This document shows, in pieces, positions 22,198 through 61,086 of a stretch of DNA of 64,000 nucleotides. Position 1 is the stretch's first letter; the number at the start of each line of letters is the position of its first letter. The notes beneath the pieces were generated by a model, which worked only from the letters and a program-made list of their open reading frames with translations, was not told where the DNA came from and did no database searches. This stretch comes from Caecibacteroides pullorum (lineage in GTDB: Bacteria > Bacteroidota > Bacteroidia > Bacteroidales > Bacteroidaceae), in NCBI RefSeq assembly GCF_019239235.1, contig NZ_JAAZTS010000002.1:124001-188000 (forward strand), given 5' to 3'. The position numbers and the translations under genes were made by a program.

Positions 22198-22271
<74 letters not shown>

Positions 22272-22278
22272 CAAAGAA

Positions 22279-22368: not shown

Positions 22369-22408
22369 TGTCCATTTTTGGACACAATCACTTGTCTAAA
22401 ACTTGTCT
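22369..22408. promoter_or_regulatory. Dyad and direct repeats just before the integrase
   Basis: TGTCCA/TGGACA with a 4-base centre (22369-22384), then ACTTGTCT twice with a 3-base gap (22390-22397, 22401-22408), ending 14 bases before the integrase start. The arrangement resembles operator or integrase arm-type sites; which one is not shown. Confidence 0.4.
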
Positions 22409-22422
22409 TTCTTTTAATCGTC

Positions 22423-23670
22423 ATGGCAACTCTCAAACTTTCTATATTAAAATATAAGGTGCTTAAGAATGGTAAGCATAAAATACGTGTTGCTGTATGC
22501 CATCATCAAGACACGTGTTATATACCAACAAAGATTGAGCTTGACTCTACATCCCAATTCAAGAACGGCCAAGTTGTAAAAAGGCCAGATGCTGCTGTTC
22601 TCAATACTAAATTGAGGAACCTACTAAACTCTTATCAAGAAAAGCTTGACAAGATAGAGAACATTTCCATTTATGACTGCAAGCAGTTAAGGCAATTACT
22701 ATTGAATTCAACAACGGCTAAAGAGGAAGCTACCTTTCAAGCAGTGTGCCGAAAATATATCTCTGAGCTGGAAGAGGAGGGTAGGAATAGTTACGCCACT
22801 CTGCTGGAAAGAAACAGCCGGTATTTTACAGAGTTCACCAAAGGGGACATTCTTCTTTCAGATATAACACCTGTCCTAATTGAGGGGTATTCCAGGTTTC
22901 TGAAGGTCAAGAAGGGAGTAGGGGACACTACCCTTGGGATGATGATGTCCAGAACACGAACCATCATCAACAGAGGCGTGAAGCAGCAATTAGTAAAGTA
23001 CGACGTCCATCCATTCCTGAATTATTCTATCTCGGCACCCAACATTCGGGAAGTGGATTTGCCCATTGAGGTATTCAACAAAATACGTCTGGCCCATCCG
23101 AAAGAGAAAAAGCTTCGGGTGGCGCACGACTTGTTCTGTCTCTCTTTCTACCTCGGAGGGATAAACCTCATAGATCTACTGCAAATCAATTTCAAGAACG
23201 TGGAAGTACTGGAGTACATCAGAACAAAATCACGGAACACAACGCATGGCACAAGGACAATCAGCTTCAGCATTCCTTCACAGGCAAGAGATATCATAAA
23301 TCTGTGGATGAACAAAAACACCGGAAGGCTCGACTTTGGGTATAAATTCTCATATCCAAACTTCTCACGGTACTTAACTCGTTCACTTGCTTCTTTGGCC
23401 AAGGAGTTGGGGATTACTGAGAAGGTTGTCTATTACTCGGCCAGAAAGTCTTTCGCCCAGTACGCCTCGGAAATAGGCATCCCTGACGGGATAATAGACT
23501 ACTGCTTGGGCCACTCGGACAAATCCAAAGGGGTGATAAGGTATTACACCAAAGTCCGGCAGAAACAGGCGGACATGGCCATTGCTCGTGTGATAGATTA
23601 CGTGAACAACCCTGAGAAGTATAAGGAATATATTGAACTGAGGTCTGATATTATGCTGATGAGAGGATAA
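22423..23670 (+). CDS. Tyrosine-type phage integrase
   Basis: 415 residues from ATG 22423 (the upstream ATG at 22378 lies in the dyad region). The N-terminal arm-binding and SAM-like domains precede a catalytic domain with S-A-R341-K-S-F-A, L-G-H364-S-D and R-Y-Y375-T-K-V. At the place of the first catalytic arginine the protein reads F-Y-L-G-G-I-N-L-I-D-L, with glycine; this is seen in some Bacteroidetes integrases as far as I recall. It acts on the adjacent tRNA-Arg. Confidence 0.93.
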   Translation: MATLKLSILKYKVLKNGKHKIRVAVCHHQDTCYIPTKIELDSTSQFKNGQVVKRPDAAVLNTKLRNLLNSYQEKLDKIENISIYDCKQLRQLLLNSTTAKEEATFQAVCRKYISELEEEGRNSYATLLERNSRYFTEFTKGDILLSDITPVLIEGYSRFLKVKKGVGDTTLGMMMSRTRTIINRGVKQQLVKYDVHPFLNYSISAPNIREVDLPIEVFNKIRLAHPKEKKLRVAHDLFCLSFYLGGINLIDLLQINFKNVEVLEYIRTKSRNTTHGTRTISFSIPSQARDIINLWMNKNTGRLDFGYKFSYPNFSRYLTRSLASLAKELGITEKVVYYSARKSFAQYASEIGIPDGIIDYCLGHSDKSKGVIRYYTKVRQKQADMAIARVIDYVNNPEKYKEYIELRSDIMLMRG

Positions 23671-26190: not shown

Positions 26191-26969
26191 GATTCCTTTG
26201 TTTGAAGATTTAGCTTCTCGGGATACCCCGTCGTATAATCGTAGCTCTCTATTTCCTCTATTGTATTCAGCTTCGATACTTCATCCTTATGTTGTGCGGT
26301 GGTGTTGTAGCACTCCAATGCATACAGCTCAAGCGCGGAAAGCATCTGTATTGCTGTGTCGCATGGAATGGTGTAGCTGTTTCCTGAGAACCACAGCGTA
26401 GTGGTTTCGTGTCCGGCGGATTTCTCTATCTGTGTAGAGTTCATAAGACCGACACGTGTAGACTTGTCAAGCCATACGGTATCTCCATCGAGGACAAACG
26501 AATTTACATTATCCGACTTGTCGTACGCCTCAATCTCAGCCAGTACCTTGGCCTTCACCTCGTCCACACGGTTCTTATACGTGCCGTCCAGACAGCCGCG
26601 TATCCAGTCCACGAGGATGTCGTAGTCTTTTACTGAGGCATCTTCGGAATTAATTCGCCTCTTCCGCTCGATTTCTTCGGACAATGCTGTGTAATCCTGC
26701 GATTTCATCAGCCCGTAAGCATTCATCACTCCCGCCACTACGGCCTTATCGAGGCTGTACGGCTTCTGCACCCGCACGGAGAAGGCTTCGGTCACGTCCT
26801 GCTCCGAACCATCTTCGTTAACACTCTTCACGGCCTTATGTCCAATGAACACAGTCACGTATCTACCCTCGTCCATGGATTGGATTTTTCCGTCTTTCCA
26901 AACGGTTTTGCTGCTGTTGTAGTCTTCTTCCATAGTGGAAGGCACTACCTGATAATTGATTGATTTCAT
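26187..26969 (-). CDS. Tail-fibre-associated protein with DUF4376-like region
   Basis: 260 residues. The N-terminal 85 residues are beta-rich. The region from about 135 to 240 has the composition and pattern of DUF4376 (helical, with V-R-x-x-R-x-x-x-L-A-E-I-E and a middle W-F-S-G-N-S-Y-T-I-P), a domain found next to phage tail-fibre genes. Overlaps the reverse-transcriptase stop by four bases, so it belongs to the same transcript as the retroelement. Confidence 0.65.
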   Translation of the reverse strand: MKSINYQVVPSTMEEDYNSSKTVWKDGKIQSMDEGRYVTVFIGHKAVKSVNEDGSEQDVTEAFSVRVQKPYSLDKAVVAGVMNAYGLMKSQDYTALSEEIERKRRINSEDASVKDYDILVDWIRGCLDGTYKNRVDEVKAKVLAEIEAYDKSDNVNSFVLDGDTVWLDKSTRVGLMNSTQIEKSAGHETTTLWFSGNSYTIPCDTAIQMLSALELYALECYNTTAQHKDEVSKLNTIEEIESYDYTTGYPEKLNLQTKES

Positions 26970-28324
26970 ACTTCAATATACGTTAATTGGTTTGTTGAGT
27001 TCTTGAAGATATACCCGCACTGGTTTTCGATTTCCACCTCTTCCAGCGGAAGGACGGCTTGTTTGCCGTACGCTCGTTCGCAAGCCTGTATGAACTGAAT
27101 AATACCTTGGTAATTGCCGTGAAATTCACGGGCAAGGATTTTTCCGGTTTTCTCGCCTTCTACTACTTCTTCGATGCCGACAAGGCACTTGATCCAGTTG
27201 GCTTCACGCTGCGAATTGTACCTTAGCTCGTAGTCATAGATTGTGATTGACATGCCTAACAGGTCTTTGATTTCGACATGTCTGGCATCCATCTTACGGT
27301 CTATCCGTATCTTCTGTGTCAATGCGGGTAACTTCATCTTGTTTTCTATGTATCGCATCAGCGCATAGTTGTCGGCGTGCTTCATCAGGCCATAATAGGA
27401 TGCCCACGACTTGTCTGAACGGCATTTCCTCGCTCGTCGCAGGGTAGCTTTCCGCACAGATACGTAGCCTTTGTCGTGTCCGCAAACTACCCTGCCTTGG
27501 TTCCGATGAAAAACGTACCCGCAGAAGTCGCACGGATTGGACAAAGGTCGCACTTGTGCACTTCCCCTCTTGGCACGCATTCCCAATCTGTACCACCACC
27601 AGTTCCTGATGCGCCACTTGGCGGCTTGCGCCTCTTCTTTCATGGCGAACGGGAGGAAGTTGTCGTCGGCATAGCGGACGCTTACAGGCGATATCGACTT
27701 CACGAAATAGTCGAACTCGAGCATGACGATGTGGTGGACGAAGGGGCTGGTCGGTGTTCCGATGGGGAGTTTCCCTTTTACGAAACACACATCGACGGCA
27801 TAGTCAACCAGCCAAGAGTCGGCCACCATTTGCTTCAACGCTCTTCGGAATACCTTAGGAGTAATATGCTCGTAGCATTTCCGCTGGTCGATAACGAGGC
27901 AGTAATGAAGGTCTCTTCGGTCGTAATAGATATGCTTCAGCCGGTGGACGACGGAACGCGAGTGTCTCTTCGACGTAATCCCGCATGTGGGTTTGCAGTT
28001 CAGGCCGTTCAGGTTGTCTTTCCGGGAATAGTGTGGCTCCAACAGGTTCAGCAAAAGGTGCTGGTAGATGCGTGTCTCCAGCGACGGGCTAAGGATGTTA
28101 CGCACCTTGCCGTTGTTGTTGACCTTCACGATGCTCCGGTAGGACAGGCGTTCTTTCCAGCTTCCGTCCTTCAGCGCAAGGAACAGGCTTATGCAGCGGT
28201 TGTCGAAGTCTTTTTTGAAGGCTTTGACATCGCGCTTGGAGCCGTGTTTGCGGAAGGCTCTGTAGGCTGCCGACTGCATATCGCTGATGCTTAGGTTAAT
28301 ATTTATGTTATCAATTCTCTTCAT
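26966..28324 (-). CDS. Reverse transcriptase of a diversity-generating retroelement
   Basis: 452 residues from ATG 28324 (28348 also possible). RT fingers/palm motifs are clear: L-V-I-D-Q-R-K-C-Y-E (motif 3, aspartate near 146), P-I-G-T-P-T-S-P (motif 4, 187-194), and V-R-Y-A-D-D-N (catalytic Y-A-D-D at 218-221). The C-terminal part has C-D-F-C...C-G and many basic residues. Most DGR enzymes have SQ where this has SP. The template and variable repeats lie directly upstream. It copies the template RNA with errors at adenines. Confidence 0.9.
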   Translation of the reverse strand: MKRIDNININLSISDMQSAAYRAFRKHGSKRDVKAFKKDFDNRCISLFLALKDGSWKERLSYRSIVKVNNNGKVRNILSPSLETRIYQHLLLNLLEPHYSRKDNLNGLNCKPTCGITSKRHSRSVVHRLKHIYYDRRDLHYCLVIDQRKCYEHITPKVFRRALKQMVADSWLVDYAVDVCFVKGKLPIGTPTSPFVHHIVMLEFDYFVKSISPVSVRYADDNFLPFAMKEEAQAAKWRIRNWWWYRLGMRAKRGSAQVRPLSNPCDFCGYVFHRNQGRVVCGHDKGYVSVRKATLRRARKCRSDKSWASYYGLMKHADNYALMRYIENKMKLPALTQKIRIDRKMDARHVEIKDLLGMSITIYDYELRYNSQREANWIKCLVGIEEVVEGEKTGKILAREFHGNYQGIIQFIQACERAYGKQAVLPLEEVEIENQCGYIFKNSTNQLTYIEV

Positions 28325-28330
28325 ATTGTT

Positions 28331-28347
28331 TGCAAGCCGGGCTTGCA
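28331..28347. promoter_or_regulatory. Palindrome at the RT start
   Basis: TGCAAGCCGGGCTTGCA is a perfect dyad with a one-base centre, seven bases before ATG 28324. It would form a hairpin in the leader if translation starts there; it overlaps the alternative start at 28348. Confidence 0.5.
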
Positions 28348-28455
28348 TGACAGTGTGGGTACCACCGTCACCCGCACTCCTTACTGCGGGCTTGTCTTAT
28401 ATATTCGTCATTCCAAGACACGGCGAAGCGGTTCTCGAAGTTTTATTGTTCCTGT

Positions 28456-28584
28456 TTGGGCAGACCCGCCATTGTTGCGATTGGCATTCGTAACGGCATT
28501 ATTCGCAGTGAAGGTACGAGGCGAGCAAGTGCTGCTGAACGCATTACCGCGAGAACGGCAGGCCGTCCGCTTCACCGTTTTTTC
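28456..28584 (-). repeat. DGR template repeat (TR)
   Basis: Non-coding copy aligned without gaps to the end of the target gene at an offset of 255 bases. Identity is exact over 28456-28471 (the IMH-like end) and over several blocks such as 28547-28564. In sense orientation it is rich in AAT, AAC and ACT codons. Within 28456-28507 all seven differences from the variable repeat fall at T on this strand, that is adenine in sense. The homology fades beyond about 28570. Confidence 0.9.
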
Positions 28585-28654
28585 AACCCTCCTTTCCCGT
28601 TTCGGAGGTCTCGGTCCTCATGCCGGACTTGACGGGAGACGAAAGGATTTCTGC

Positions 28655-28688
28655 GGGGCTTGCAGCCCCTTTATTCCGCTTGCAGCGG
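28655..28688. promoter_or_regulatory. Two tandem hairpins just after the variable repeat
   Basis: GGGGCT-TGC-AGCCCC (28655-28669) and CCGCT-TGC-AGCGG (28676-28688), with the same loop, lie 8 and 27 bases past the target stop codon in sense direction. Hairpins or cruciforms just beyond the variable repeat are known to aid target recognition in DGRs such as BPP-1. They may instead act as terminators. Confidence 0.6.
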
Positions 28689-28695
28689 GCTGCGC

Positions 28696-30768
28696 CTACT
28701 CAATCAAGGCTTGGGCAGACCCGCCAGTGGCGCGATAGGCAGCCGTAACGGCATGATTCGCAAGCAAGTAACGAGGCGAGCAATTGCTGTAGTTCGCAGC
28801 ACCGCGAGAACGGCAGGCCAAACGCACACGCTGGTTAAGTGTCGTACTCCAATAGTTGTTGTCCCATACATACAGACATTCCCCGGTGGATATGCTTCCG
28901 CCTTTCTCGATTTTCCATGGTGCATAAGGCAACCTGCGAAGAGCGTAACCGTCACCAAGATTGGTTCCCTCGCCTATCATCAGGTATTGGCTTTCAAAGT
29001 CAAAGACACCAAGTTCAGTTTTGGACGAACTTTTTTCGGTGTGCCATTGCAGCTGGTCGGGTTGCAGATAAAACTTGACAGGATTGCCCGTACTTGCACT
29101 GGTAGGATAAAGGCAGGTACCAACCTGCTCATAACCGCCGCCACAATACATGAATATGTCTCCTGAAAGATTTACTCCGGAATAGAGCGACATGCGCAGG
29201 TTGACTTCTACATCCCAGCTTTGTTCAGTGCCATCGGAAGTATAGGCCGTAAAGGTCTGTGACATGACTTTATATACACGCACATTCATGCTGGCCGTAC
29301 CGTCCGTACCGGGAACACTGACATAACGGTACTTGTATCCGTAAAACTCAAATTCAGTGTCTTCTGGAACGCCTGTCTCCACGGCAAAGCTGAAGGCCAT
29401 CTGGCTTTCCATGCAGGCTTCTTTGGGGTATTCCGAATTTATCAAATTATAGAAGTGAGTACGGTTACCGGTTGCGTTGTAATAGATATCTTTCTGGTCG
29501 CTCCATTTTGCGTACGTCCATGTTTCTGTACCGTTTTTTTTGAACCTGACACCACCGTTTACCAGCCAATTCTCTTCATTGGCACAAGAGTCGTTGGACG
29601 ATATCCCGCTGCCGAACATGTTGGCGTTATGCAGGTATTTGGTGCCGTAAAGCACCTCAAGCTCCGTAATTAACGTGTTCAAGGCATGATAGCCGCCTTC
29701 TGCAAACGGATAAGGGGCGTTGGCGTCCGCATTGTTCGAGCGGGCGTAGGTCATGTTGTTAATCTGTTGCATGTCGTTGACACGAGGATAGGTCTTTTCC
29801 TGGTCGTAGAACATGGTACACAGGTTGTTCTGGCCTTTTCCTGACTGGCAGTTGCCTTCACCCTTATACAGATACAGGAAGTTTCGTGTCTTCTTGTTCA
29901 CCGTACATGCCGGGCCGGGGCCGATGGCGGTCGGTACAAGAGGGTACTTGCTCACGTCAATTCCGTCCCACACAACTGGATTGGTGAATATGCCTTTCCA
30001 TGCCTTGCCGCTCTCGCCGATTACGTTGTCAAGCAGATACACGGTGTCAGTACGGGCAATACCGATGGTGTATTTGGTCTCGGTGGTTTCCCACGGGCGG
30101 AGCACGCGAACTTCGGTACCCTCCGAGTTGTAGAGCTTGGCCATGCCGTGCTCATTGTAGAACGCCTCGGCATCGAACGCACCGGCATCGCAGTATTTCT
30201 GCTGCTGCGCTTCGTCCAGATACAGCTCGACGTCGCACTCCGCACGCTGCGCCTCGGTAATGCCGACGGTCGGCGCAAAGCTGCCGTCCGCAAACCGCAG
30301 CAGGTTGTTGCGCATCAGCTTGCCGACAGGCTTCGTGGTCTGACGGGTGTTGTCGGTGGTATCAAGCAGATAGAAGTCGTACTTCATCAGGATGTCTTTT
30401 GTCCCTCGGAAGAAAGACACGCTTTCAGGTGCCAGCTCGTCGGGGTCCCAGCCGGCAACGGCATAAGGTGACTGGGACAGCTTCAACTGCTCCACATCTT
30501 CGGATAGCCCTTCAAGGCTCTGCTTCGTTGCATAGGTACCAGCCGCCTCGGTCTTGGTGAGCTGGTCGGCGGTTGCCTGTGTGATTGCTTCTTCCACTTC
30601 TGTTTTGGTCGCAAGGCCGCTGATGTCGGGAATGTCGGACTTCTTGGCGAACTTGTCTGTTTTTACCTTCTTGTTGTTTCCTCCGCTATCCACAACAGGG
30701 ATATATTCTTGTCCGCTTACTTCACTCAGTTCGGACATCTGGCTGATTTTCTGTCCTTGTATATCCAT
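28696..30768 (-). CDS. DGR target: variable tail/receptor-binding protein
   Basis: 690 residues. The N-terminal 100 residues include a helical stretch of phage tail-attachment type (D-I-S-G-L-A-T-K-T-E-V-E-E-A-I-T). The middle is beta-rich. The last 150 residues end in a C-type-lectin-like variable region: W-K-I-E-K-G-G-S-I-S-T-G, Y-V-W-D-N-N-Y-W-S, R-V-R-L-A-C-R-S-R-G, then the diversified residues. It is placed at the end of the tail genes, so a role in host-receptor binding is the natural inference. Diversification would change host range. Confidence 0.88.
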   Translation of the reverse strand: MDIQGQKISQMSELSEVSGQEYIPVVDSGGNNKKVKTDKFAKKSDIPDISGLATKTEVEEAITQATADQLTKTEAAGTYATKQSLEGLSEDVEQLKLSQSPYAVAGWDPDELAPESVSFFRGTKDILMKYDFYLLDTTDNTRQTTKPVGKLMRNNLLRFADGSFAPTVGITEAQRAECDVELYLDEAQQQKYCDAGAFDAEAFYNEHGMAKLYNSEGTEVRVLRPWETTETKYTIGIARTDTVYLLDNVIGESGKAWKGIFTNPVVWDGIDVSKYPLVPTAIGPGPACTVNKKTRNFLYLYKGEGNCQSGKGQNNLCTMFYDQEKTYPRVNDMQQINNMTYARSNNADANAPYPFAEGGYHALNTLITELEVLYGTKYLHNANMFGSGISSNDSCANEENWLVNGGVRFKKNGTETWTYAKWSDQKDIYYNATGNRTHFYNLINSEYPKEACMESQMAFSFAVETGVPEDTEFEFYGYKYRYVSVPGTDGTASMNVRVYKVMSQTFTAYTSDGTEQSWDVEVNLRMSLYSGVNLSGDIFMYCGGGYEQVGTCLYPTSASTGNPVKFYLQPDQLQWHTEKSSSKTELGVFDFESQYLMIGEGTNLGDGYALRRLPYAPWKIEKGGSISTGECLYVWDNNYWSTTLNQRVRLACRSRGAANYSNCSPRYLLANHAVTAAYRATGGSAQALIE
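28711..28828 (-). repeat. DGR variable repeat (VR)
   Basis: The 3' end of the target gene. It starts (sense 3' side) with the 16-base block shared with the template (28711-28726). Codon changes relative to the template near that end are AAT to CAT, GCT, TAT and ACT, and AAC to GCC, all adenine-directed. Farther away the changes are mixed. It is nine bases from the stop codon's side of the gene end. Confidence 0.9.
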
Positions 30769-58638: not shown

Positions 58639-61086
58639 TCACAGAAAATCCCTTAGAATTTCTTCTTCGCTCATCACTTTTCCTTCTGCATGGTGATAAT
58701 CTATGGAATAGCATAGCAGATCCACAAACTCATCGTGGGGCTTTGCCGGAAAACCGCATACTTCGTCCACGAACAGGTCGTTCCAGTCGCCGTCCACAAG
58801 CCACACCCGCCCGCTTTCCACATACGGTGACGAGGCGTTGAGCCTGGTTTCCTTGCTGTCTTTCGGGGAAGGGGTGGAAGTAACGTTGAGATTGGTGCTT
58901 TCATATAACTGGTCGATTACCGAAAGTCCGTTCGCTTTTGGCTCGATGCGCACGCTGCTTCCCCTGCCGTACCCATTGTCACGCACGTATGAGGGCAGGA
59001 AGCGGCACAGTTCGGGGAACTTCATGTTCACCTTCTTGGCGCAGACAATGTAGATGTTGTTGTCAATCATGCAGGAGCCGAGAATACCCGTCGGGTCGTT
59101 CGACGTTTTTTCGGTATATGCGGTATCCACAAAGAATGTGACGGGTTCGCCTTGACGTTTCTTGTTGAACTCGAATAAAGAAATATGCCTGAACCATTGT
59201 TCCTTGATGATGTTTCCTCCCTCGATGGTGGGGTGCTGCTGGTAGAGCGCTGAGAAGAATCGCGGTGAGCGGTTTCGTGCGTCAAGAAGCCGTTCCAGTG
59301 AATGACGGCCGGGCCACAAGGCTTCACCTACTTTGCGGGGATCGAAATCGTTGCCGTCGTCAAGACTTTCCCGGATGGCAGGTATGGAAAGTACAGTCCA
59401 TTTGTCCGGCTCTTTTTTCAGAATGCGCCCGGCAAGGTCGTCTTCATGCCAGCGGGTCATAATGAACAACTGGTTGCTCGCATTATGCAGACGGGTAAGC
59501 AACACCGAAGTGTACCAGTCCCATACCCGTTCGCGGCTGACGGGGGAATAGGCCGTCATGGCATCCTTTATAGGGTCGTCTATGATTGCGATGTCAACCG
59601 GTGTACCTGTGAGCGAGCCTCCTACGCCTACAGCCTTGTAAAACCCCTTGTGACCCACCGTCTCGAATATGTCCACATTGCGCAGATATCCTCTTACGTC
59701 TGTCCGGACATTGGAGCCGTTCAGGTAGGTGTCGGGGAAGATGCTCTGGTACTCCGGGCTGTCGATGACGCGCTGTATGGATCGTGAGAATTGTTCGGCA
59801 AGGTTGGCGCTATATGACGTTCCCACTATCTTCAGGTTGGGGTTATAGCCCAGCGCGTATGCGGGGAAACTCCGGGATATTATCTCGCTGTTGTGGGTCG
59901 GTCTTAATTCTTTCCCCGCAAGATAATATCCGCCCTCTACCTGTATGCAGTTTACAATACATTCGCCATATGGAACTATAGATTTGATAAAATGTTTCTT
60001 CTTATCAGACCTGTCTTTGGTTTGTTTATTCTGCAATCGTTCAGCCTTACGTGGGAGCAAAAAGACTGCATCGTCTTTATCAGGATTGAAGCAAATGCGA
60101 TATTTCTTTGAAACGATATGCCCTTCGAGCGTTGCATTCCCTTGATGCATTCTCGGTTTATATCCCAATCCTCTTACAAGCTCACAGATGTCATTGGCAA
60201 GTGCTTCATTTGTTTGAATAATCTCACAGTTGCCTCGCTTGTCGCAATATCCGTCAGTATCCATGAGCCCCTGCAATAATGATATGCGTTGCCTTATATC
60301 AGCATACAGATATTCAGGAGGTATATGCTTGTTCCCTAAAACGCCAATTTGTCTTAACTTCGTATTATTCAGCTCGTCAAATGTTATATAAGCGACATTT
60401 CCTTTGACACTTACTATCTTCCCGCTATATTGAGACAAAAAGAATTTGCAGTCATCCACTGACTTGCATATCTGCTTATGTCTCGACGCTCCGTCCCCGA
60501 GCCACAATCCGAGCAAATAAGGAGGCGTCGGCAATTTCTTGTTCTCGCATACAAGAGGACTTGCAGCTTTGAGATAAGGGCTTCTGTCTTTTATCTTAAT
60601 CGCTATCTCTTGTGTCTCGATTTGCGGATAATACACAGAATCATGGCTTGAATTAGGAATATAGCATCCCCATTCATGCTGATTAGCTGCAATGATTGGA
60701 TTACCGTCCGCAAACCTTACTTTGCTGCATTTACACGGATAATGGCACGTGACAGCCTCTATTCTGACCTTTTCTCCGTTCGGTGCAAATACATAATCCC
60801 CAACGCATAATAAACCATGCTCAACCCATCCACGGTTTGCGGTCAGTATCGGCGTTTTTATATCTAATGCCTTTCCGTGCTGGGGAGGCATGAATACCAT
60901 CAGATTCTTTATCCTGCCGTCGAGTATCATCTGGCAATGGTCGGCAATGGCTTTGTGGAACCACTGGCTGACGTAAGACGGGTTGATATACGGAATGAAT
61001 TTATAGAACATACCGGGAGCGTCTTTCTTCAGCAGCAGACGTTCCAGTTCCAACTTCCTTTTTACCTGTGCGTCGGTCAGCCTCAT
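58639..61086 (-). CDS. Large terminase subunit interrupted by an intein
   Basis: 815 residues: an ATPase/nuclease motor of 488 residues plus a 327-residue intein at residues 73-399. After splicing the Walker A reads P-P-Q-H-G-K-S. Walker B is I-A-I-I-D-D-P; the coupling motif is F-I-M-T-R-W-H-E-D-D. The nuclease aspartates lie in F-F-V-D-T-A-Y and in D-Y-H-H near the end. It packages DNA into the capsid with the small subunit. Splicing is needed because the intein breaks the P-loop. Confidence 0.95.
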   Translation of the reverse strand: MRLTDAQVKRKLELERLLLKKDAPGMFYKFIPYINPSYVSQWFHKAIADHCQMILDGRIKNLMVFMPPQHGKALDIKTPILTANRGWVEHGLLCVGDYVFAPNGEKVRIEAVTCHYPCKCSKVRFADGNPIIAANQHEWGCYIPNSSHDSVYYPQIETQEIAIKIKDRSPYLKAASPLVCENKKLPTPPYLLGLWLGDGASRHKQICKSVDDCKFFLSQYSGKIVSVKGNVAYITFDELNNTKLRQIGVLGNKHIPPEYLYADIRQRISLLQGLMDTDGYCDKRGNCEIIQTNEALANDICELVRGLGYKPRMHQGNATLEGHIVSKKYRICFNPDKDDAVFLLPRKAERLQNKQTKDRSDKKKHFIKSIVPYGECIVNCIQVEGGYYLAGKELRPTHNSEIISRSFPAYALGYNPNLKIVGTSYSANLAEQFSRSIQRVIDSPEYQSIFPDTYLNGSNVRTDVRGYLRNVDIFETVGHKGFYKAVGVGGSLTGTPVDIAIIDDPIKDAMTAYSPVSRERVWDWYTSVLLTRLHNASNQLFIMTRWHEDDLAGRILKKEPDKWTVLSIPAIRESLDDGNDFDPRKVGEALWPGRHSLERLLDARNRSPRFFSALYQQHPTIEGGNIIKEQWFRHISLFEFNKKRQGEPVTFFVDTAYTEKTSNDPTGILGSCMIDNNIYIVCAKKVNMKFPELCRFLPSYVRDNGYGRGSSVRIEPKANGLSVIDQLYESTNLNVTSTPSPKDSKETRLNASSPYVESGRVWLVDGDWNDLFVDEVCGFPAKPHDEFVDLLCYSIDYHHAEGKVMSEEEILRDFL
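59890..60870 (-). other. Intein in TerL (class-3-like, with LAGLIDADG endonuclease)
   Basis: 327 residues starting A-L-D-I-K-T and ending P-T-H-N, followed by Ser. Class 3 signature: W two residues after the block-B His (H-E-W), C in block F (V-N-C-I-Q-V), and T before the final H-N. Ala at position 1 rules out the standard class 1 start. LAGLIDADG motifs are L-L-G-L-W-L-G-D-G and L-L-Q-G-L-M-D-T-D-G, both intact, so the endonuclease may be active. Confidence 0.92.

Follow-up and report, generated by a model that had tools for sequence, protein, structure and literature searches.

In the window, the whole 64,000-nucleotide stretch of Caecibacteroides pullorum DNA analysed here, a phage diversity-generating retroelement (DGR) carries a template repeat (TR) that appears, with a probability of roughly 0.6, to have been overwritten in part with the sort of sequence that the element itself generates, an adenine-mutagenised tract having been copied into the TR interior by homology. 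Sequence comparison with close relatives shows that the TR, and not the variable repeat (VR), is the changed copy, that its alteration forms one compact tract, and that the VR has the ordinary adenine-only pattern in both of the zones described below. The template change is probably real and unusual, although the element itself is of a known kind; the overwriting reading is drawn from one instance.

On the minus strand of the window, read 5' to 3', a target gene with the VR at its 3' end is followed by the TR and then by the gene for the reverse transcriptase (RT; Table 1). The element is a DGR in a phage or prophage, as the initial annotation had correctly recognised together with its orientation. 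The VR lies within a coding gene, at its 3' end; the TR is near the RT, at the same location as the TRs of the related loci L009 and L026 and the annotated TR of the phage csAssE-Sib. The RT beside the TR belongs to the DGR lineage, as judged from its RVT_1 match and from the 35 distinct TR/VR pairs found near its relatives (L009-L052). The cassette sits in a tailed-phage prophage with capsid, portal and tape measure genes (PHROGs) and an integrase at a tRNA-Arg gene. Elsewhere in the window, the terminase large subunit reading frame (815 aa, 58639-61086) has internal homing-endonuclease/LAGLIDADG matches, suggesting an intein. The two hairpins downstream of the VR (28655-28688) stand in tandem and both have GCA loops.

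Table 1. Coordinates of the DGR cassette and of the neighbouring integrase in the window.
Feature	Position	Strand	Basis or remark
Phage integrase	22378..23670	+	beside tRNA-Arg (22198-22272)
RT, DGR-type, 460 aa, intact, YADD	26966..28348	-	Pfam RVT_1 3.2e-12; PHROG 1423 reverse transcriptase 2.3e-36
Putative IMH* of the TR, corresponding to the IMH of the VR	about 28454-28471	-	inferred by position from csAssE-Sib
TR, 109 nt	28456..28564	-	between target gene and RT; repeat search, ungapped alignment
Altered TR tract	28508..28539	-	7 changes found only in the window
Second hairpin downstream of VR, 6-bp stem	28655..28669	-	fold prediction; whole-stretch z = -1.55
Hairpin just downstream of VR, 5-bp stem	28676..28688	-	fold of whole stretch z = -1.55, weak
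Target gene, 690 aa receptor-binding-type protein, VR in C terminus	28696..30768	-	homology to csAssE-Sib target
Putative IMH, VR 3' end	28709..28726	-	inferred from position relative to the csAssE-Sib IMH/IMH* annotation
VR, 109 nt	28711..28819	-	repeat pair with TR; 13/15 mismatches to L009 TR at A

The RT reading frame is intact, and the codons changed only in the window comprise 32 silent and 10 replacement differences. The intact RT and the VRs that differ among the three close phages are indirect signs, read from sequence, that the DGR may be active. A PDB sequence search with the RT gave one match, 8ub7 ('Reverse transcriptase', E = 9.4e-6), which we take to be the RT of Bordetella phage BPP-1. 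RT relatives were found at 35 loci in viral contigs and 9 in genome contigs, most with a TR/VR pair nearby. The window RT has the motif GTPTSP at the position where DGR RTs usually have GxxxSQ, and SQ was absent from this motif in all 11 RTs aligned (11 of the RTs found, with L019 excluded). The aligned RTs outline a clade with GTP-x-S-P/S in place of GxxxSQ that spans viral and bacterial contigs. In the excluded locus the RT-matching stretch has 19 stops in one frame and the RT looks broken; its TR/VR pair nonetheless has 14 of 15 mismatches at TR adenines. The csAssE-Sib report describes a GxxxSP RT motif and notes that an RT of this type goes unrecognised by myDGR, a tool for finding DGRs (PMC11054128), and DGRs with GTP-x-S-P/S RTs may be undercounted.

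The target protein is 52% identical to that of csAssE-Sib across 597 aligned positions, and the latter is described, in part of the same report, as a C-type-lectin-like receptor-binding protein (PMC11054128). Pfam, PHROGs, NCBIfam and PADLOC gave the target no family name at the limits used, with one match below the cut-off at 0.072. Two predicted structures of the target are of low confidence across the VR part; Foldseek with the target models returned no match at E <= 0.001, and VIA-align reached a best Z of 3.1 with a model that is poor in the VR part.

Aligned at an offset of 255, the TR and VR need no gaps, and they form a repeat pair with 83% identity. The initial annotation had divided this alignment into a zone near the initiation end (28456-28507), with seven mismatches all at sense-strand TR adenines, and a far zone (28508-28567), with 15 mismatches of which six were at A, and we reproduced both the offset and these counts. 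The copies stop matching above 28564, so that the mismatches at 28565-28567 fall outside the repeat. The whole repeat has 19 mismatches, 12 at TR A and seven not, and all seven non-A mismatches lie within 28508-28539. Non-A sites are mismatched at 0 of 37 positions in the near zone versus 7 of 50 in the far zone (Fisher p = 0.019). The far zone nonetheless keeps an adenine bias, with 5 of 7 A sites mismatched against 7 of 50 non-A sites (p = 0.003). Of its 12 mismatches inside the repeat, A is confined to the TR at five and to the VR at another five, and neither copy has A at the remaining two. Such a mixture of TR-A and VR-A mismatches is what is expected of two copies of one template that were independently adenine-mutagenised. 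In nearly all published DGRs, at least 75% of TR/VR mismatches are at TR adenines (PMC8144416); the share in the present pair (12/19, 63%) lies under this level, whereas against the TR of L009 or L026 it is 13/15.

The closest relatives tell which copy changed. L026, from a Bacteroides MAG, and L009, from IMG/VR, have RTs 96% and 92% identical to that of the window and carry the same cassette, but without the altered tract. From the TR and VR alone, ahead of any relative, the ancestral tract had been inferred as AAC AAC AGC AAT ... AAC TTA AAT. The L009 TR reads AAC AAC AGC AAT ... AAC TTG AAT, so that the inferred ancestor was right at all six A sites and wrong on TTA. L026 agrees with L009 at all seven changed sites, and the more distant csAssE-Sib TR has A at all six adenine sites. 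Among the 31 other distinct TRs of the family, these six sites are A in 28, 29, 31, 29, 26 and 30. Measured against the L009 TR, the window VR has 15 mismatches, 13 of them at A; at the remaining two (28554 and 28552) the window TR, window VR and L026 TR share the base and L009 is the odd one. The L026 TR likewise gives 15 mismatches with 13 at A, and the other two (28537 and 28473) are its own differences.

These comparisons overturn the proposal that the VR combines a recent adenine-directed patch with an older, mixed zone, since the VR is adenine-only in both zones against the L009 and L026 TRs. By contrast, the accompanying suggestion of a template that has since changed is borne out by the seven localised TR changes found only in the window. 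Partial retrohoming, in which a short cDNA would have rewritten only the 3' part of the VR and left an older 5' part, had been offered as the explanation. Partial cDNA integration is plausible in DGRs, and the 3' zone is indeed adenine-only. Because the VR is adenine-only in both zones, a short cDNA is unnecessary: the anomaly is a localised TR change, which largely refutes partial retrohoming and leaves it extremely improbable. Moreover, other pairs show few non-A mismatches whatever the internal distance, at no more than 0.65% of sites in bins of 20-99 nt (34 family and 140 other pairs, selected for A bias), and VR mutation follows no simple trend with distance from the initiation end in 174 pairs. 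A second template matching the far zone had been named as the finding that would count against partial retrohoming, but the genome itself holds only these two copies; its other nine matches at E up to 10 are 14-23 bases long.

The TR alteration is compact and of adenine type. Six of the seven changes replace conserved adenines of AAY codons, and the seventh is G to C at 28510. All seven fall in a 32-bp tract, whereas changes unique to the window number zero in the other 77 TR bases and zero in the 146-bp VR-TR spacer. The RT-side spacer and RT gene differ from those of L009 and L026 by 7 to 13%. Once the seven changes are excluded, the L009 and L026 TRs each differ from the window TR at 2 of 109 bases, and their own TR/VR mismatches are at TR adenines in 17/18 and 15/16 cases, respectively. 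Unaltered adenines flank the tract on both sides, the TR 3' (initiation) end is intact, and the new TR base is absent from the VR at every one of the seven sites. Random placement of seven changes was as compact in 3 of 200,000 trials over 255 bp and in 388 of 200,000 over the 109-bp TR alone. Six of seven changes at A has p = 0.003 given 11 adenines among the 32 tract bases, and p = 0.006 against the TR-TR baseline, in which 99 of 303 differences involve A; these single-test p-values are modest and mutually non-independent. The fraction of tract adenines changed, 6/11, resembles that seen in VRs, where 665 of 1383 adenines are changed in the pairs of relatives.

Ordinary point mutations kept in the TR could also have produced these changes, perhaps under selection to fix or narrow receptor-binding residues, with adenine changes favoured as they alter the diversification programme. 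Consistent with this, TRs do differ between phages, and VRs follow the TR changes in the examples viewed; moreover, one of the seven changes is G to C and several other family TRs lack conserved adenines. We consider the explanation unlikely, because TR adenines are normally conserved, with A involved in 99 of 303 differences between nearest-neighbour TRs (window excluded), because seven changes in 32 bp stand next to none in the adjoining 223 bp, and because the VR lacks the new TR base at all seven sites, unlike what stepwise older changes would leave.

Nor do the TR/VR pairs of relatives resemble that of the window. In 51 such pairs, a set restricted to those with 60% or more of their mismatches at TR-A and with the window and identical pairs excluded from totals, TR adenines account for 665 of 696 mismatches, and 4 of 696 have A only in the VR, versus 5 of 19 in the window. 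All 35 distinct pairs of relatives, kept at 60% or more TR-A, reach 75%. A further scan of 155 loci required TR-A and VR-A mismatches together to make up at least 75%, and 38 of these loci gave no new pair. With the limit at 70%, a wide scan of 236 loci detected a pair in 162; its 187 pairs comprise 174 clean ones (at most one VR-A and at least 75% TR-A), five VR-VR-like ones and eight remaining ones. The low VR-A total of the 174 clean pairs is partly by construction, since they were selected in this way. In 9 of the 187 pairs, namely the window and eight VR-VR pairs, A is confined to the VR copy at three or more sites; among the other remaining pairs, such sites number two in L037, one in L107, none in L116 and two in L159. 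The number of internal non-A mismatches is 0 in 136 of the clean pairs, 1 in 28, 2 in nine and 3 in one, and seven in the window, a comparison that is again partly by construction given the choice of pairs for A bias.

Several loci were considered as second cases and rejected. L112, L150, L152, L161 and L163 compare one VR with another, a separate adenine-rich TR having been seen for each, and L145, L165 and L213 were assigned to the same VR-VR class by script sorting alone. L186 and L187, weak candidates, have AA changes that already occur in their own VRs and are mixed with non-A changes. Against L175, their TRs show double changes, AAC to TTC and AA to GG, that also occur in their VRs, possibly older template rewrites that have since spread to the VR. 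In L147/L154, six of six differences involve A, but the changes lie mostly toward the 3' end of the repeat, and the pair was left uncounted.

An assembly or consensus artefact, in which the TR took up reads of a VR variant because the culture was mixed or the sequence came from a metagenome bin, would draw on the long identical runs common to TR and VR and on the frequent mixture of VRs within a population. Against it, the VR present in the assembly represents another allele, and L026, itself from a metagenome bin, has a TR without the altered tract; we also reason that a graph assembler should prefer the TR path, which every genome carries, over a VR variant in the minority. We therefore find an artefact improbable. 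Mosaic import of the tract from the TR of another phage that legitimately carries these codons would be expected to give the same product, and phages do recombine. A donor with the altered tract was found neither in the genome itself nor in the viral collection nor in 399 family genomes: for a degenerate pattern taken from within the tract and its 3' edge, L009 was the sole match among viral contigs, and the window's two copies were the sole matches among the family genomes (1/399). Any donor without the adenines but otherwise matching would itself be VR-like, and this origin seems very improbable.

The one tract change at G and some results from other TRs weigh against the overwriting reading. 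The nearest-neighbour TR pairs (54 pairs of at least 88% identity among 139 distinct TRs, ends untrimmed) have no excess of AA double changes (3/540 versus 40/5166 without the window, p = 0.79), and we therefore make no claim that TR self-mutagenesis is common. The TRs of L046, L047, L050, L021 and L016 also lack some adenines of conserved columns; L050 lacks them at 7 of 21 columns versus 5 of 21 for the window. Since those viewed are without the TR/VR signature of the window, adenine loss has other routes. The L046 TR is without a mid-TR run of AAY codons that is present in the L044 TR, and the differences between these two are not adenine-only.

The preferred reading, overwriting of the TR by an adenine-mutagenised copy, suggests the following sequence of events. 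The VR lacks the new bases of the TR, which makes the TR change younger than the last VR rewriting over that stretch. About 32 bases at 28508-28539 would have been copied, presumably in a single event, after the VR was last rewritten from the intact template there; the donor may have been a VR allele or free mutagenised cDNA. Canonical DGR homing starts at the IMH side, and IMH-primed homing into the TR does not fit a TR whose 3' initiation end is unaltered. Rather, homology on either side of the tract would fit short-tract conversion from VR to TR or annealing of a cDNA strand. PMC12875486 argues that cDNA gains access to its targets through pairing with DNA that replication leaves single-stranded, and the TR would offer the same homology as the target for such base pairing. 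As a consequence of the alteration, the tract has gone from 11 adenines to five, and the loss of six mutable adenines narrows its diversification 4^6 = 4096-fold. One AAC codon has become TTC and can no longer be diversified, and four other AAY codons are left with a single adenine.

Among known systems, the crAss-like csAssE-Sib (PMC11054128; OR575929.1) is alike in its order of target, VR, TR and RT, in the identity of its RT (55%) and target (52%) and in its GxxxSP motif, and 85 of its 109 TR bases are as in the L009 TR. Unlike the window, its TR keeps the adenines at the six sites and its host element is a crAss-like phage, not a tRNA-Arg prophage. The DGR of Bordetella phage BPP-1 is likewise described, in parts of PMC3240598 and PMC12875486, as using mutagenic retrohoming with adenine-specific errors and unidirectional transfer from TR to VR. 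It differs in that its TR is stated, in a passage of PMC3240598, to be unchanged, and its RT is only distantly related to that of the window. The hankyphage DGR (BK010646.1) also resides in a Bacteroides prophage and has adenine-specific VR changes, but the parts of PMC6199706 that treat it report TRs without substitutions across hosts. In 15 hand-picked hankyphage and related loci, the TR is identical in nine; three have 4 or 5 scattered changes, one each at A, and the rest are two loci with 2 TR changes and one distant locus. In hankyphage jmh47_hp (PV107406.1), two template-repeat annotations fall under one match, which suggests that its VR resembles the TR closely enough to have been labelled a TR as well.

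PMC10907252 also describes the TR as unaltered, and a self-mutated template would depart from the constancy described in these accounts (PMC3240598, PMC10907252, PMC6199706). Literature searches covering the main texts of journal papers, largely open-access ones, turned up no account of an adenine-type tract within a TR, and none of the titles listed dealt with template mutation in DGRs. According to PMC6642488, substitutions other than A-to-N occur in 46.3% of its TR-VR pairs and are described there as arising in the passage from TR to VR.

A template bearing the adenine-type mutations of its own machine would show leaky protection, a limited lifetime of diversity and a route of template evolution. 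We put forward tentatively, and with more doubt than belief, that DGRs do not pass information in one direction only and that mutagenised cDNA made by the RT can anneal with internal parts of the DGR's own template and rewrite them, thereby getting past the IMH/IMH* barrier. If this were true, template write-back would act as a ratchet that erodes, or records, diversification, and some of the reported 'non-adenine substitutions' between TR and VR would be adenine mutagenesis on the TR side, with the signature of A in the VR opposite a non-A base in the TR. This signature may explain some of the 'non-A' outliers, and counting it offers a survey test: between two VRs such sites are ordinary, whereas between a TR and its VR they would mark a damaged or rewritten template.
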